Origin: Methanonatronarchaeales archaeon
Lineage (GTDB): Archaea; Halobacteriota; Methanonatronarchaeia; JAANXF01
Assembly (NCBI GenBank): GCA_018263395.1
Contig: JAANXF010000013.1
Location: forward strand, 1 to 64,000
Length of the DNA: 64,000 nt
Direction of reading: 5' to 3'
Shown: positions 52,351 through 60,570 of the stretch, one piece after another
Layout of the letters: every line of letters starts with the position of its first letter
Numbering within the stretch: the first letter of the stretch is position 1
Notes under the pieces: generated by a model
Seen by the model: the letters and a program-made list of their open reading frames with translations, nothing else
Database searches by the model: none
Told to the model about the DNA's origin: nothing
Translations under genes and position numbers: made by a program

Positions 52351-52442
52351 AGAGATTACACCGCAGGGACACAGGAGGTGGTTACAATGCACCACCCGTT
52401 TTATAGGGGGTGAGTTATAAGATGGGTTTGGTGCGTTTCACG

Positions 52443-54134
52443 ATGCGAGGGGCCGGCGATGCAGATGGCCGCAAAGTTGCCCTGGTCGTTTTAGGGTTAT
52501 TTTTATTGGCGGCTTTTTCGTGGGTAGGATACGTCTACTTCGTCGACGTCCAGAAACCCGCCATCGGCGTTATAGAACTACGAGGGGTCATATGGGAGGG
52601 AAAGGCCGATCAGGTCGCCAGTACGGTCAACTATACCATGCAGAACGAGGATATCGAAGGGGTAGTGGTAGTCGTGGACTCCCCTGGAGGTGGGGTCTCT
52701 GCCATCGAACGGATACACGGAAGCTTACTCCGCCTCAAAGAGGAGAAACCCTTGGTGGCATCTGTCGAAGGATTAGCGGCCTCCGGTGGGTACTACAGCG
52801 CGGTTTCCTCGGATTACGTCTTTGCCCAGCCCTCCTCGTTTATAGGAAGCATAGGCGTCATATCCACCGTTCCTCAGGGTGCGGAACCTGCGGAAGGGAT
52901 CCTTGATACGGGGCCCTACAAATCGCAGGGCTTCCCTATATCTGAAACTCCTAAGACGACGGAGAAGGTCCTCGGAAACTTTCTTGACGCCGTCAAGGAC
53001 GGGCGGGGGGAGCGCCTGAACGTCTCGGAAGAGAAGCTGAAACAGGGCTCTCTCCACCTCGCACCCGAGGCCGAAAGGATGGGGTTAGTGGACGAAACCG
53101 GTTTCTCAAAAGACGCCGTAAAGAGGGCCGCCGACCTCGCGGGAGTGGATGACTACCGGGTAGTCTCGGTGAACAAGGCGGTGAAGCAACAGGAGTCAGG
53201 GGATGGTACCCCGCTGCGGAACGACTCCTCTGAACTGACGGAGTGGCCCCATATCACCGAGGAACAGCTTCGAGAGATGGACCCCTCGTCCTACTTTTAC
53301 TATCTATACGTTCCACCCGACCAGAATCCGCTGCAGGATACACCACCTGAACTGGTGCCACCAGGTGAAGACGAGGCAGCGAGCCCGATGCCGGCTCTTG
53401 AGGGAGAGGCACCGGAAAACGTGGCGCTGCTGGATATGGCCCACGGAAACAACTTCGAGCCGGAAGAGCTCCAGCCATTGATCAACAGGCTCGTCTCAAG
53501 GGGATTTGTAGTAAGGGCGTATAACGGAGGCGGTCTGGGCCCGAAACTGGATAAAGTGGACAGCTTCTTCGTAGCCAACACCGCGGAGGGCTTCACTAAT
53601 GAGGAGGTCAACGCCGTAGACGCGTTCGTGAAGGAAGGGGGAAGACTTCTCATGGTAAACGACCCAACGAGGTCTGGACCTACCGAGGTCAACGGCCTCG
53701 CGACGAATTTCAATGTCTCCTTCTCGTCGGGGTACCTCTACGACATGGAGGATAACTACGGAGTCTACAGAAACATCTACGTCACGGAGTTCCAGGGTTC
53801 GCTATCCGGGACCGGGCGTCTGATGCTCCCGACCGCCGCTCACGTAGAGGTCAACGCCAGTTCGGTAGACGCGGCCTTCACCGACACGGAGACCGTTCAC
53901 TCAGCGACCCGGTCCCGGGGAGAGTACTCACCGGTGGTTCGGACCGGCGACGTGATGGCCATAGGTGACTGGTCATTCGCGACTTACCCGTGGCTGAACC
54001 TGGAGAACAACTCGGACCTCCTCGACGAGACTGCGGATTTCCTCGGCGAGCCACTCGAGCGCACCTCCAACCGGACCGGACCCTCTCCTGTACACCCGTC
54101 TCTCAACGATTCGGCTCTCGATGGCGATCAATGA
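52443..54134 (+). CDS. S49 (SppA-like) peptidase with DUF4350-like C-terminus
   Basis: The ATG giving MRGAGDADGRKVALV is preferred because TTTTATAGG at 52399-52407 would be a TATA box for a transcript starting near 52430; GTG at 52410 is only 3 bases from it. One TM helix (VALVVLGLFLLAAFSWVGY) leads to the S49 core with VVVVDSPGGGVSA and the nucleophile serine in ASGGYYSA, and a lysine in TGPYKSQG. After an acidic linker there is a second domain, VALLDMAHGNNFEPEEL to FVKEGGRLLMVNDP, which looks like DUF4350. It would degrade membrane peptides. Confidence 0.82.
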   Translation: MRGAGDADGRKVALVVLGLFLLAAFSWVGYVYFVDVQKPAIGVIELRGVIWEGKADQVASTVNYTMQNEDIEGVVVVVDSPGGGVSAIERIHGSLLRLKEEKPLVASVEGLAASGGYYSAVSSDYVFAQPSSFIGSIGVISTVPQGAEPAEGILDTGPYKSQGFPISETPKTTEKVLGNFLDAVKDGRGERLNVSEEKLKQGSLHLAPEAERMGLVDETGFSKDAVKRAADLAGVDDYRVVSVNKAVKQQESGDGTPLRNDSSELTEWPHITEEQLREMDPSSYFYYLYVPPDQNPLQDTPPELVPPGEDEAASPMPALEGEAPENVALLDMAHGNNFEPEELQPLINRLVSRGFVVRAYNGGGLGPKLDKVDSFFVANTAEGFTNEEVNAVDAFVKEGGRLLMVNDPTRSGPTEVNGLATNFNVSFSSGYLYDMEDNYGVYRNIYVTEFQGSLSGTGRLMLPTAAHVEVNASSVDAAFTDTETVHSATRSRGEYSPVVRTGDVMAIGDWSFATYPWLNLENNSDLLDETADFLGEPLERTSNRTGPSPVHPSLNDSALDGDQ

Positions 54135-55933: not shown

Positions 55934-56033
55934 TTCCTCCCTATCGGCGGTTTGATGCGTCGGCGGGAGGCGGGACATGCTCCGTGAAGCGTCCCGGGAA
56001 GAAATTAAGCCGCTGAAACTCCATCTATGCCCG

Positions 56034-56519
56034 ATGAGCGAGCTCGCAACTGAGGACAAACTCATCCTGGACAGGCTCCAGTCCGATTTTCCACTCACGA
56101 GCAGGCCGTTCGACACGCTGGGCGAGGAGGTGGGCATCGAGGGCCCGGAGGTGCTGAGGCGCGTCAGGAACCTGAGTGAGGAGGGCTACATCCGGCGGCT
56201 CGCACCGGTCCTATCCTCCCGGAAAATAGGATACGGCGCCGCCGCACTCGTGGCCGTCCGCGTGGACGGGGACAGGATCGAGGAAACTGCAGACTTTATC
56301 TCCCGGTACAGCGGCGTAACGCACAACTACGAGCGAGCGGCACCGGGGTACAACCTCTGGTTCACCCTGCACGCCCGAGACGGCGACGAACTGGAGAGGG
56401 TAATAGACGAGGTGAGGGAGAACACTCCAGCAGAGGAGGTTCTGCCGCTCCCCGCCACGAGGGTTTTCGGGATAGGGGTCAGATTCGACATAGAGGGGGG
56501 CGTGGATGACGACCGGTAG
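56034..56519 (+). CDS. ahbA: Sirohaem decarboxylase subunit AhbA
   Basis: 161 residues from MSELATEDKLILD; the longer track ORF is not family-like before this. An Lrp/AsnC-like winged helix (FDTLGEEVGIEGPEVLRRVRNLSEEGYIRRLAPVL) leads to a ferredoxin-like ligand domain with THNYERAAPGYNLWFTL, the active-site His and Tyr region. With AhbB it converts sirohaem to didecarboxysirohaem in the archaeal haem route. Confidence 0.92.
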   Translation: MSELATEDKLILDRLQSDFPLTSRPFDTLGEEVGIEGPEVLRRVRNLSEEGYIRRLAPVLSSRKIGYGAAALVAVRVDGDRIEETADFISRYSGVTHNYERAAPGYNLWFTLHARDGDELERVIDEVRENTPAEEVLPLPATRVFGIGVRFDIEGGVDDDR

Positions 56520-57003
56520 CATGACCGATGGCGGCCTGTGCAGGGGGGACGAGGAACTTTTAATGGAGGTTCAGGACGGCATACCCTTGGTGGAAGAACC
56601 CTGGAGGGAGGTCGGGGAACGCCTCGGGATGTCCGAGGGCGACGTTGTCGAGAGGCTGGAGAGACTCATGGACGATGGCGTGATTCGGCGGATAGGTGCC
56701 TCCATCGTTCACCACTCCGTGGGGTACGAGTTCAACGCCATGGGGGTATGGAAGGTGCCGGAGGAGGAGGCCGAGGGGGTAGGGAAAAAGATGACGAGCT
56801 TCGACTTCGTGACCCACTGCTACGAGCGACCGGTTTTCCCCGGCAGGTGGGAGTACAACCTGTTCACGATGGTTCACGGCCGGTCGAGGGAGGAGTGCGA
56901 GGAGAAAATCGAGAAACTTGCCGAGGCGACCGGCGTGGAGGATTACGAAATGATTTACTCGACCCGGGAGTTCAAGAAGACGGGAGTGAAGCTTCCGGAA
57001 TGA
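56506..57003 (+). CDS. ahbB: Sirohaem decarboxylase subunit AhbB
   Basis: 165 residues, overlapping ahbA by 14 bases (ATG at 56521 would leave a one-base gap). GDVVERLERLMDDGVIRRIGASIVHHSVGYEFNAMGVWKV and THCYERPVFPGRWEYNLFTM are AhbB signatures. It forms the decarboxylase with AhbA. Its stop overlaps the next start (ATGA). Confidence 0.92.
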   Translation: MTTGSMTDGGLCRGDEELLMEVQDGIPLVEEPWREVGERLGMSEGDVVERLERLMDDGVIRRIGASIVHHSVGYEFNAMGVWKVPEEEAEGVGKKMTSFDFVTHCYERPVFPGRWEYNLFTMVHGRSREECEEKIEKLAEATGVEDYEMIYSTREFKKTGVKLPE

Positions 57004-57620
57004 TACCCCTGGTGCACGACCTGACCGGTAAAAAGGTCGTTATATTCGGTGGAGGCGACGTCGGTGAGCGCAAGGCCAGGTTCTTCGAGGGAGAGTGCGA
57101 AGTGGTCGTGGTGAGCAGGGACTTCAATGAGGGGCTGATGGACCTGGACGTCGAGCTCCTGAGGGGGGACGTCGAGGGGAGCTACGCGGAGCTCCTGGAC
57201 GGCGCGTTCCTGGCGGTGCCGGCCACCTCGAACAGGGTCCTCAACGCCGAGATAGAGGTGGAGGCAGGGGCGAGGGGCGTCCTCGTCAACAGGGTCGACG
57301 GGCCCGGGGAGGTGATCGTCCCGAGCGTGGTCGACTTCGAAGACTTCGCGGTGTCGATAACGACCTTCGGGGAGAGCCCCGCGACCTCCAAGTTCATAAG
57401 AGAGAGGATAGAGGAAATTCTGGGGGAGGAGTATCGGGGAATGGTAGAGATACAGAGGAGGGCGAGGGACTTACTGAAGGGGGAGGTCGAGGAGCAGATG
57501 GAGAGGGGCCGTGCCCTCGCCGAGGTGATGGAGGACGAGGAGGTCTGGTCACTCCTTAGGGAGGGGAGAACCGAAGACGCGTGGAGAAGGGGCAAGGAGG
57601 TTCTCAGGGTTGCCGTTTGA
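57000..57620 (+). CDS. Precorrin-2 dehydrogenase / sirohydrochlorin ferrochelatase-like protein
   Basis: 206 residues from MIPLVHDLTGKKVVIFGGGDVGERKARF, the NAD-binding start of the MET8/CysG-B family. Conserved steps follow: LAVPATSNRVLNAEI, VNRVDGPGEVIVPSVV, and ISIT-like SITTFGESPATSKFIRERIEE. It oxidises precorrin-2 to sirohydrochlorin with NAD and may insert iron to give sirohaem. The substrate for AhbAB is thereby made in the same operon. Confidence 0.92.
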   Translation: MIPLVHDLTGKKVVIFGGGDVGERKARFFEGECEVVVVSRDFNEGLMDLDVELLRGDVEGSYAELLDGAFLAVPATSNRVLNAEIEVEAGARGVLVNRVDGPGEVIVPSVVDFEDFAVSITTFGESPATSKFIRERIEEILGEEYRGMVEIQRRARDLLKGEVEEQMERGRALAEVMEDEEVWSLLREGRTEDAWRRGKEVLRVAV

Positions 57621-58881
57621 GAGCGTACTCGGGTTGCACGTGACCCACAAGTGGTGCGAAGTGGACGAGCTGGAGGCAGCGTCAACCGGCGACACCGAGT
57701 CGGCGCTGTCCCACCTGATGGAGCACGACTCTGTGAGGGAGTGCGTCGTGATGGAGACGTGTAACAGGGTGGAGATATACGTCTACGCGGAAGACAAGGA
57801 GGAGGGCAGGAAGGTCCTTCTGGACTTCGCGGAGCACAACATGGACCTGAACGTGGAGCGCTCGATACAGTTCACGAGCGGCGAGGAGGCTCTTCGACAC
57901 CTGATGGAGGTCTCCTCCGGTATAGACTCCATGGTGGTAGGCGAGGACCAGATACTGGGCCAGGTCAGGGAGGCGTACGAGCTCGCGAAAAAGAGAGGCA
58001 CCGTGCACAAGTTTCTGGACCTGGCGTTCACGAAGGCGATAAACGTCGGCAAGAAGGTGCGCACCGAGACGGGTATAAACAGGGGGGCGGTATCCGTGGG
58101 AACGGTCAGCGTGGACATGGCCGAGGAGGTCCTGGGGAGCCTCGAGGGCCGGGACATACTCGTGATAGGGGCGGGCGAGATGGCGACCAGCGTCGTCAAG
58201 TGCCTCGCGGAGAAGGCGCCGGGAAGAATCACTGTCGCAAACAGGACCCTGTCGAGGGCCGAGGAGCTGGCCCGGCAGGCCGCCGGCAGTGGAGTGAAGT
58301 TCTCACGCTTCACGGAGTTCCTCCCCGATGCCGACCTCGTCATAAGCGCCACCGGGGCTCCCCACCCGATAATAGAGAAGGAGGACCTGGAGGGCGTGGA
58401 GCGCACCTTGAAGCTGCTCATACTGGACATCTCCAACCCGAGGGACGTGTCCACGGACGTGGAGGAGCTGCCCGGCATAACCAGAATCGACCTGGACGGC
58501 CTGGAGGCCGTGACCACCGAGAACAGGAGGAGGCGCCGATCAGAGGCCAAGAAGGTGGAGGGAATGATCGAGCAGGAGCTCGACCTCCTCCTCCGGGGGT
58601 TCGAGGAGAAACAGGTGGATAACCTCGTCGGGCACCTGCACATGAGGGCCGCCAGAATCAGAGAGAGGGAGCTGAAGAAGGCCCTTCAGCGACTCGGGGA
58701 AGAGGACGAGCTGAGCGACCGTCAGGTCCGCATAATCGACGACATGTCGAGATCCGTGCTGGGCAGCCTGCTGGCGGACCCCACGGGCGAAATCAAGAGA
58801 GCAGCGAGGGAGGATGACGAGGAGTTCCTGTCCGCCGTCAGGAGGATGTTCCGTCTGGAGCAGCCGGTGATCAGCAGATGA
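57610..58881 (+). CDS. hemA: Glutamyl-tRNA reductase
   Basis: 423 residues from a TTG start. The catalytic cysteine is in VVMETCNRVEIY, followed by EDQILGQVREAY, GAVSVGTVSVDMAE, the NADPH loop LVIGAGEMATSVVKCL, and a dimerisation tail. It makes glutamate-1-semialdehyde from Glu-tRNA, the entry to tetrapyrroles. It overlaps both neighbours by a few bases. Confidence 0.96.
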   Translation: MPFESVLGLHVTHKWCEVDELEAASTGDTESALSHLMEHDSVRECVVMETCNRVEIYVYAEDKEEGRKVLLDFAEHNMDLNVERSIQFTSGEEALRHLMEVSSGIDSMVVGEDQILGQVREAYELAKKRGTVHKFLDLAFTKAINVGKKVRTETGINRGAVSVGTVSVDMAEEVLGSLEGRDILVIGAGEMATSVVKCLAEKAPGRITVANRTLSRAEELARQAAGSGVKFSRFTEFLPDADLVISATGAPHPIIEKEDLEGVERTLKLLILDISNPRDVSTDVEELPGITRIDLDGLEAVTTENRRRRRSEAKKVEGMIEQELDLLLRGFEEKQVDNLVGHLHMRAARIRERELKKALQRLGEEDELSDRQVRIIDDMSRSVLGSLLADPTGEIKRAAREDDEEFLSAVRRMFRLEQPVISR

Positions 58882-59636
58882 GGCTCGCTATCTTTCGGCC
58901 CGAGCGCCTCCTGCGGCGGTCGATCGATTACTGCGAGTCAAGGGGCTTCGAAGTCCTGGCAGCTCCCTCTATAGAGCTCTACCCGCGGAGCGATGCGATG
59001 AGGGAGTTCCTGTCGGAGGTCAGGGAGGGGGACCCGGATATCGTCGTGTTGACGAGCCAGAACTCCATACGAATGCTTCGGGACGAGCTGGGCGACGAGG
59101 TGGTCGACGAGCTGAGGGGAAGGACGGTCGCGGCGATAGGTACGAAGACCCTGAGGTCCCTTGAGGAGAGGGACATCGAGGTGGACATCGTGCCGGAAAC
59201 CTTCTCCTCGACCGGTCTGGTGGAGGCCCTGCGGCCTCACGAGGGTAGCTGCGTCCTGGTGGCGAGGAGCGACAGGGGCGACGAGCGTTTGCTCGAGGCC
59301 GGGGACTTCCTGGAATTGAGGGAGTTCAAGATTTACGAGGTCGGGCTTCCGAGGGACACCTCCCCGATACGGGAGGTCCAGGACCGCGCGGTTCGGGGCG
59401 AGGTGGACGCCTTCGCGTTCACGAGCACCATGACGGTCAGGAACTTTCTGAGGGTCGCGGATGAGGGCGGCAGGGTGGACGAGGTCAGGCGGGCACTCTC
59501 CGACTCGGTCGTGGCGGCGCTCGGCAGACCGACAGAGGAGACACTGGAGTCCCTCGGGGTGGAGGTGGACGTCGTTCCCGAGAGGTACACCTTCGAGGGC
59601 CTCGTGGACGCCATCGAGGGCCTGCCCGCCGCCTGA
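58878..59636 (+). CDS. hemD: Uroporphyrinogen-III synthase
   Basis: 252 residues. Two Rossmann-like halves are visible (VVLTSQNSIRMLRDEL and FAFTSTMTVRNFLRV), with AAIGTKTLRSL and VAALGRPTEETLESLGVEVDVVPERYTFEGLVDAI, typical of HemD. It cyclises hydroxymethylbilane with inversion of ring D. The start overlaps the hemA stop (ATGA). Confidence 0.92.
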   Translation: MRLAIFRPERLLRRSIDYCESRGFEVLAAPSIELYPRSDAMREFLSEVREGDPDIVVLTSQNSIRMLRDELGDEVVDELRGRTVAAIGTKTLRSLEERDIEVDIVPETFSSTGLVEALRPHEGSCVLVARSDRGDERLLEAGDFLELREFKIYEVGLPRDTSPIREVQDRAVRGEVDAFAFTSTMTVRNFLRVADEGGRVDEVRRALSDSVVAALGRPTEETLESLGVEVDVVPERYTFEGLVDAIEGLPAA

Positions 59637-59670
59637 AGATTTAACAAGGTTCGAGGGGGAGTCTCTTGTC

Positions 59671-60570
59671 ATGAATCGGCGAAGGCGGAGCCTGGTGGTT
59701 ATCGCGTTGATACTGGGAGGGATAGCGATCTCCCTGGTCGCGGGTTACAGCTACAGCCAGAACGTGGCCTGGGCCGGCGACGAGGTTCACGTGGTATACC
59801 TCCAGGGCCAGATGGCGACGGCGACCGTGCCCGGCGGCCTGGGCGTCGTATCGTCTGAAACCATCTCGGGCCACATCAGGGACTCCGCTGATTCCGGAGC
59901 GGCCGCGATCGTGCTCAGGGTGAATAGCCCCGGGGGGACTCCGGCGGCGGCCCAGGAGGTCGTGGACGCCGTCGAGTACGCCAGGTCGAAGGAGGTGCCC
60001 GTGGTGGCCTCGATGGGGGACATCGGCGCGTCAGCCGCCTACTACGCCGCGTCTGAAACCGACCGCATAGTTGCGAATCCCGACACCATGACCGGGAGCA
60101 TAGGCGTCATCTGGCTCTTCGAGAACTCCTCGGCCAAGTTTCGGAAGGAGGGCACCAACTACACCATCGTGAAGTCGGGTGAATTCAAGGACATGGGTTA
60201 CCCGCAGGTGGGGCTCACGGAGGAAGAGGAGGAGTACGCCCAGGGCGTGGTCGACGCCGCGCACTCCAGGTTCGTCGAGCAGGTCGCGGAGGGGCGAAAC
60301 CTGCCCAGGGACGAGGTGGAGAGCGTGTCGGACGGAAGGGTGTACACGGGCCGTGATGCCCTCGAACTCGGCCTCGTAGACGAGATGGGGACCCTCGACG
60401 CCGCGATAGAGGCGGCCGAGGAGCTCTCGGGCGTCGAGGACGCCGAGGTGAGGTACGTCAACCGCCCCTCCCTCGTGAAGCTGCTCCTGGGCGAGGGCGG
60501 CGGCGTCGGGTTTGCGGAGGTGCTCGGGTACCTGGAGCCCTACGGAAAGCTCCTTTCCGTGGCCGGCTGA
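59671..60570 (+). CDS. sppA: S49 signal-peptide-peptidase (SppA)
   Basis: 299 residues from MNRRRRSLVVIALILGG, a basic start and TM helix. NSPGGTPAAAQEV and the catalytic Ser in GASAAYYAASE with Lys in VKSGEFKDMG are intact. It is the second S49 peptidase in 7 kb, shorter than the first and without extra domain. It follows hemD by 34 bases. Confidence 0.93.
   Translation: MNRRRRSLVVIALILGGIAISLVAGYSYSQNVAWAGDEVHVVYLQGQMATATVPGGLGVVSSETISGHIRDSADSGAAAIVLRVNSPGGTPAAAQEVVDAVEYARSKEVPVVASMGDIGASAAYYAASETDRIVANPDTMTGSIGVIWLFENSSAKFRKEGTNYTIVKSGEFKDMGYPQVGLTEEEEEYAQGVVDAAHSRFVEQVAEGRNLPRDEVESVSDGRVYTGRDALELGLVDEMGTLDAAIEAAEELSGVEDAEVRYVNRPSLVKLLLGEGGGVGFAEVLGYLEPYGKLLSVAG

Follow-up and report, generated by a model that had tools for sequence, protein, structure and literature searches.

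Why should an SppA-like protease in an archaeal genome continue, within one reading frame, into a domain of the DUF4350 type, and is this combination the oddity of a single genome or a wider module with a role of its own? The gene that raises the question lies in the window, by which we mean the whole stretch of 64,000 nucleotides from a Methanonatronarchaeales archaeon that was analyzed here. Its reading frame is intact from an open GTG at 52410 to a stop ending at 54134 on the forward strand, with alternative ATG starts at 52422 and 52443; the likeliest start is the ATG at 52422, which is preceded by a GGGGGTGA stretch. Residues are numbered on P0001, the 563-aa protein counted from the ATG at 52443, and the features discussed below are collected in Table 1.

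Table 1. Features of the fusion gene and of the downstream genes discussed in the text.
Feature	Position	Strand	Remarks
S49-GIFT fusion gene	52410..54134	+	574 aa if GTG 52410 is the start
Single N-terminal transmembrane helix (predicted)	52473..52541	+	by hydropathy, about residues 11-33; helix 6-33 in the model
S49 (SppA-like) protease domain	52560..53168	+	residues 40-242; PF01343 and model match to SppA
Predicted catalytic Ser114 (ASGGYY)	52782..52784	+	59/59 in alignment A10
Predicted catalytic Lys160 (TGPYK)	52920..52922	+	59/59 in alignment A10
Conserved strand in the tail that follows S49	53298..53318	+	residues 286-292, YYLYVP region; model strand 285-288
Linker to the GIFT domain, partly disordered, without transmembrane helix	53319..53417	+	pLDDT < 50 at 299-315
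C-terminal GIFT (DUF4350/ABC_transp_aux-like) domain	53418..54062	+	residues 326-540
D331-x2-H334-x-N336 motif	53433..53450	+	alignment A10
Invariant N523	54009..54011	+	59/59 rows of alignment A10
AhbA-like siroheme decarboxylase subunit	55977-56519		
AhbB siroheme decarboxylase subunit	56506-57003		
Siroheme synthase N-terminal domain	56997-57620		
HemA	57610-58881		
Uroporphyrinogen-III synthase-like gene	58878-59636		end overlaps earliest candidate starts of ordinary SppA
Second, ordinary SppA, not in the module	59593..60570	+	TIGR00706 190.4 bits (cut-off 155.45); solo-SppA group in the tree

A sequence-only reading of this DNA had proposed that an S49 peptidase and a DUF4350-type domain are joined in one protein, and profile searches bear this out. 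The N-terminal half matches PF01343 (Peptidase_S49) well above the cut-off (6.2e-20; 72.2 bits against 24.9) and holds the Ser/Lys dyad of the family as S114 and K160, while the score against the SppA equivalog TIGR00706 is 108.5 bits, below the cut-off of 155.45. The C-terminal half does match DUF4350 (PF14258; 2.6e-4), although at 21.8 bits this lies under the Pfam cut-off of 30.4, and it also matches ABC_transp_aux (PF09822; 3.1e-5), again under the cut-off (34.7). The DUF4350 match is not a chance one, given that stand-alone homologues pass the same cut-off (L002 and L005, with 30.7 and 34.6 bits), that AlphaFold2 is confident in this region and that the nearest folds in the PDB are the GIFT domains of IFT52. 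Likewise, the IFT52_GIFT profile (PF23355) gives 13.7 bits with the window protein, below its cut-off of 27.2, and 32.7 bits with one homologue, L051. The fusion of an S49 protease to a domain of the DUF4350/ABC_transp_aux/GIFT superfamily is real.

Structure prediction gives the C-terminal domain a more definite identity. The AlphaFold2 model of the whole protein (mean pLDDT 87.8, pTM 0.77) retrieves SppA first and the N-terminal domains of IFT52 next in Foldseek, with the S49 part matching Bacillus subtilis SppA (4kwb/3rst) at E of about 1e-16. Modeled alone (pLDDT 84.3), the C-terminal domain finds IFT52 as its best match (5fms/5fmr; E 1.5e-10 to 1.3e-8, TM about 0.65-0.78), followed by Wbp1 of the oligosaccharyltransferase (6c26), site-one protease (9csd, 8uw8), glycosidases and, remotely, amidotransferases. 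Since a sequence profile (A9) also reaches IFT52, at 5.2e-7, the model and the profile together identify the C-terminal part as a GIFT domain with the fold of IFT52 and Wbp1. In a viral structure library the top matches were S49/ClpP-like proteins, and no fusion to GIFT was recognized among them. The earlier assignment to a class I amidotransferase-type domain did not survive: the entire 563-aa protein lacks cysteine, leaving none for a Cys-His-Glu triad, and amidotransferases come up only remotely in the fold comparison, ranked behind IFT52 and Wbp1.

The new domain carries its own conserved residues. In alignment A10, in which Ser114 and Lys160 are invariant (59/59), D331 and H334 are each found in 58/58 and N336 in 57/58 of the rows with a residue there, and N523 is present in all 59, so that the D-x2-H-x-N plus N motif is kept about as strictly as the predicted catalytic Ser and Lys. 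Conservation on a par with the protease dyad could be taken to mean that the GIFT domain is an enzyme in its own right acting through these residues. We regard this as very unlikely, considering that no cysteine is available for amidotransferase chemistry, that IFT52 and Wbp1, the nearest folds, are non-catalytic, and that the motif is absent from some paralogues. The latter are haloarchaeal GIFT partners (L041, L042, and L046), in which ligand binding would therefore be non-essential or different. A second conserved element is the Y-x-Y-x2-P tail that follows the S49 domain (Y287 in 90%, Y289 in 95%, and P292 in 92% of rows). B. subtilis SppA keeps its own C-terminus in the active site (title of 4kwb), and by this analogy the tail may be a lead.

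How widespread is the combination? In a first comparison with 40 relatives, the S49 match of two genomes was immediately succeeded by another ORF that matched the C-terminal domain, and these stand-alone proteins pass the DUF4350 cut-off. Within the window's phylum, 59 strong matches (at least 111 bits with a profile of the C-terminal domain) comprise the window's fusion and 58 separate genes, and all 58 of the latter lie directly downstream of an S49 gene, usually overlapping it. The weaker matches examined in this phylum (L081-L085, L167, and L168) have no S49 gene beside them, and in the window's class, from which three genomes were sampled, the domain is absent from the other two. In the Bathyarchaeota phylum, which we take to be Thermoproteota in GTDB, a match occurs in 64 of 300 genomes, and every checked locus at about 65 bits or more (49/49) is a fusion. 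All four strong, complete loci of the Chloroflexota sample are pairs, one further strong locus ends at a contig end, and the weak matches fetched from this sample lack S49. A scan of named species genomes found S49 linked to the domain at 17/17 loci, as pairs in Methanophagales, Methanosarcinales, Methanoperedens, Methanocellales, Haloplanus, Chloroflexi, and Nealsonbacteria, and as fusions in Hecatellales, Bathyarchaeota, and Nitrososphaerales, the Nitrososphaerales fusion having a frameshifted S49 region. The bacterial cases are gene pairs. Many of the Bathyarchaeota-phylum fusions (ORFs of 715-790 aa; for example L089 538-2787 and L065 2371-4305) have about 200 extra aa after the GIFT domain, a region that gave no Pfam match in L089, the one tested, and some genomes hold two S49-GIFT pairs (e.g., G098, G274, and G940).

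These gene arrangements show a near-obligate linkage of the GIFT subfamily to an S49 subfamily dedicated to it, in Archaea and in some bacteria alike. A one-off fusion or a sequencing artifact is ruled out by the occurrence of the same fusion in many independent genomes, and the fusion is not peculiar to the window's genome either: it is the sole fused case among the 59 strong matches of its own phylum, yet fusion is the usual form in the Bathyarchaeota phylum. The sequence-only statement that SppA does not normally carry such a domain thus holds for ordinary SppA, but not for the combination as such, which is widespread. The S49-GIFT module is real and conserved, and it is more notable as a widespread unannotated pair or fusion than as an oddity of one genome. 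No description of it was found in the open-access papers searched, and the SppA passages of a review of archaeal membrane proteases name no GIFT-type partner. What had been a poorly annotated “S49 peptidase” gene and an equally poorly annotated “DUF4350 protein” gene of archaea become one module with a testable role, and DUF4350/GIFT proteins gain a concrete partner.

The window also allows the module to be compared with an SppA of the usual kind. The second SppA about 5.5 kb downstream, already taken for an ordinary one in the sequence-only reading, passes the equivalog cut-off, and the specialization proposed there for the fusion relative to it agrees with the S49 tree, in which GIFT-linked S49s stand apart from solo SppAs (SH-aLRT 99). 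The fusion is like known SppA proteins (B. subtilis SppA 3rst and 4kwb; Thermococcus kodakarensis SppA) in its one N-terminal anchor, outward S49 domain, Ser/Lys dyad, and fold, but differs in belonging to a separate subfamily, in scoring below the TIGR00706 cut-off and in its near-obligate link to GIFT. The distances of the S49 and GIFT halves correlate at 0.88, a level that shared descent by itself would produce as well. The window's fusion groups with the Bathyarchaeota-phylum fusions (SH-aLRT 94 in the concatenated tree, 95 with S49 alone), and a clade of this fusion with the halophile pairs is not rejected by the AU test (p 0.41), so the window's fusion may stem from inheritance, from transfer or from an independent event. 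Contamination of the contig was judged unlikely because the second SppA falls among S49s from the window's own phylum.

Gene geometry bears on where the two domains lie. We surveyed 78 pair loci and 54 fused loci, with some redundancy in each set. The two genes of every pair share a strand, with a median spacing of -4 nt between the S49 stop and the partner's first Met, and each GIFT partner has an N-terminal hydrophobic segment ahead of the domain. Conversely, none of the 54 fused loci has a transmembrane-like segment in the linker, whereas the N-terminal anchor was found in 51/54 within the stretch examined. As the partner has its own anchor in pairs and the fused linkers have none, topology is preserved: the fusion drops the second anchor and still leaves S49 and GIFT on one side of the membrane. 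By this predicted topology the window protein is extracytoplasmic.

The occurrence of S49 and GIFT as fused or adjacent partners across Archaea and some bacteria suggests that together they probably form one regulated surface protease. With slightly better than even confidence, we propose by analogy with known systems that the protease is SppA-like and extracytoplasmic and that the GIFT domain controls either its activity or the access of substrates to it. The window protein would be a membrane-anchored, outward-facing SppA-type serine protease covalently joined to a GIFT domain, the counterpart of the separate membrane-anchored partner that the next gene encodes in related organisms. The GIFT domain may pack on or beside the oligomeric protease and could set which substrates reach it and when, perhaps through the docking of a partner, a metal or a glycan in the conserved pocket, much as the GIFT subdomain does in site-one protease or as SppI controls SppA in Bacillus. 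Likely substrates would be membrane-linked or exported proteins and peptides, while the ordinary SppA would take care of routine signal-peptide clearance.

Site-one protease (S1P/MBTPS1) is likewise a membrane-anchored extracytoplasmic serine protease with GIFT C-terminal to the protease. It has a subtilisin (S8) domain, a P-like domain, prodomains, and a C-terminal anchor, in contrast to the S49 domain and N-terminal anchor of the window protein, and the architectural likeness is therefore convergent. Protease-GIFT architectures have arisen on two unrelated protease folds, S49 here and S8 in site-one protease. In the latter, the GIFT subdomain contacts the protease subdomain and stabilizes the oxyanion-hole residue; it also holds a putative calcium in an acidic pocket close to where the two meet, and may regulate access (PMC11231238). 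A stronger form of our proposal, tentative and rather doubtful, would make the module a prokaryotic counterpart of site-one protease, in which S49 is gated by GIFT and the D-H-N...N pocket binds a metal or ligand, providing regulated surface proteolysis beside a housekeeping SppA. Genetic and biochemical work is made easier by the motif and by the presence of the pair in haloarchaea that can be cultured, among them Haloplanus ruber.

SppA-SppI of B. subtilis likewise consists of an S49 protease and a membrane partner from the same operon. To our knowledge, SppI is not a GIFT protein and is unrelated in sequence to the GIFT partner, and we know of no SppA-SppI fusion. SppI binds SppA and inhibits it, the two forming a membrane complex encoded by one operon (PMC7568657). 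The GIFT partner gene also lies directly after S49, which raises the alternative that GIFT, as partner or as domain, acts as an inhibitor and holds the protease inactive until stress is signaled. Besides the lack of relationship to SppI, a permanent covalent fusion is no less suited to a regulatory or docking part built into the protein than to an inhibitor that can dissociate, and we consider this alternative quite improbable.

Alternatively, GIFT may chiefly serve as an anchor that binds glycans or the S-layer and so brings the protease to glycosylated proteins of the surface, with no control over the active site. Sugar binding has been proposed for GIFT domains (PMC7226087). The presence of Wbp1 and several glycosidases among the fold matches and the extracytoplasmic topology of the protein are also in its favor. 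However, IFT52, the nearest fold, works in protein complexes, and the module is common to very different envelopes (Chloroflexi, ANME archaea, and haloarchaea), and we think a role purely as an anchor unlikely, control by GIFT being the preferred reading.

The sequence-only reading had also suggested a surface or secretion system, a suggestion that the neighborhood does not favor. The fusion gene is flanked by a CBS-domain gene on the other strand on one side and by tRNA-His, an SDR gene, and a heme/siroheme cluster on the other, and no secretion or surface-structure genes were recognized among these neighbors. The heme/siroheme cluster (55977-60570) runs into the ordinary SppA. DUF4350 proteins (arCOG01314) are predicted to form a secretion complex with vWA and AAA+ proteins, and they share with the window module the domain superfamily, membrane anchoring, and an extracellular location (PMC5898192). 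This account does not mention S49, however, and arCOG01314 has a C-terminal anchor and vWA/AAA+ neighbors where the window module has an N-terminal anchor and an S49 neighbor. Among the families searched, in a subset of window ORFs, no vWA or AAA+ gene adjoins the fusion gene, and neighbors of the module vary between genomes with no obvious conserved neighborhood. That the module is part of such a system therefore seems extremely unlikely.

A few individual neighborhoods are worth recording. At one Methanoperedens locus (L061 408-3762), the S49-GIFT pair is immediately preceded by NfeD and Band_7/SPFH genes, a possible link of the module to NfeD-stomatin systems; no second NfeD/Band_7 case was seen among the loci compared, and relatives of these two genes are absent from the window. 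The NfeD protease PH1510 with the stomatin PH1511 likewise combines a membrane protease of the ClpP fold with a membrane partner of its own, whereas the window module has neither the NfeD C-terminal domain nor a stomatin. In two Chloroflexi genomes (L054 2655-4025 and L066 3870-5015), a DUF5666+DUF4382 protein is encoded directly downstream of the pair.
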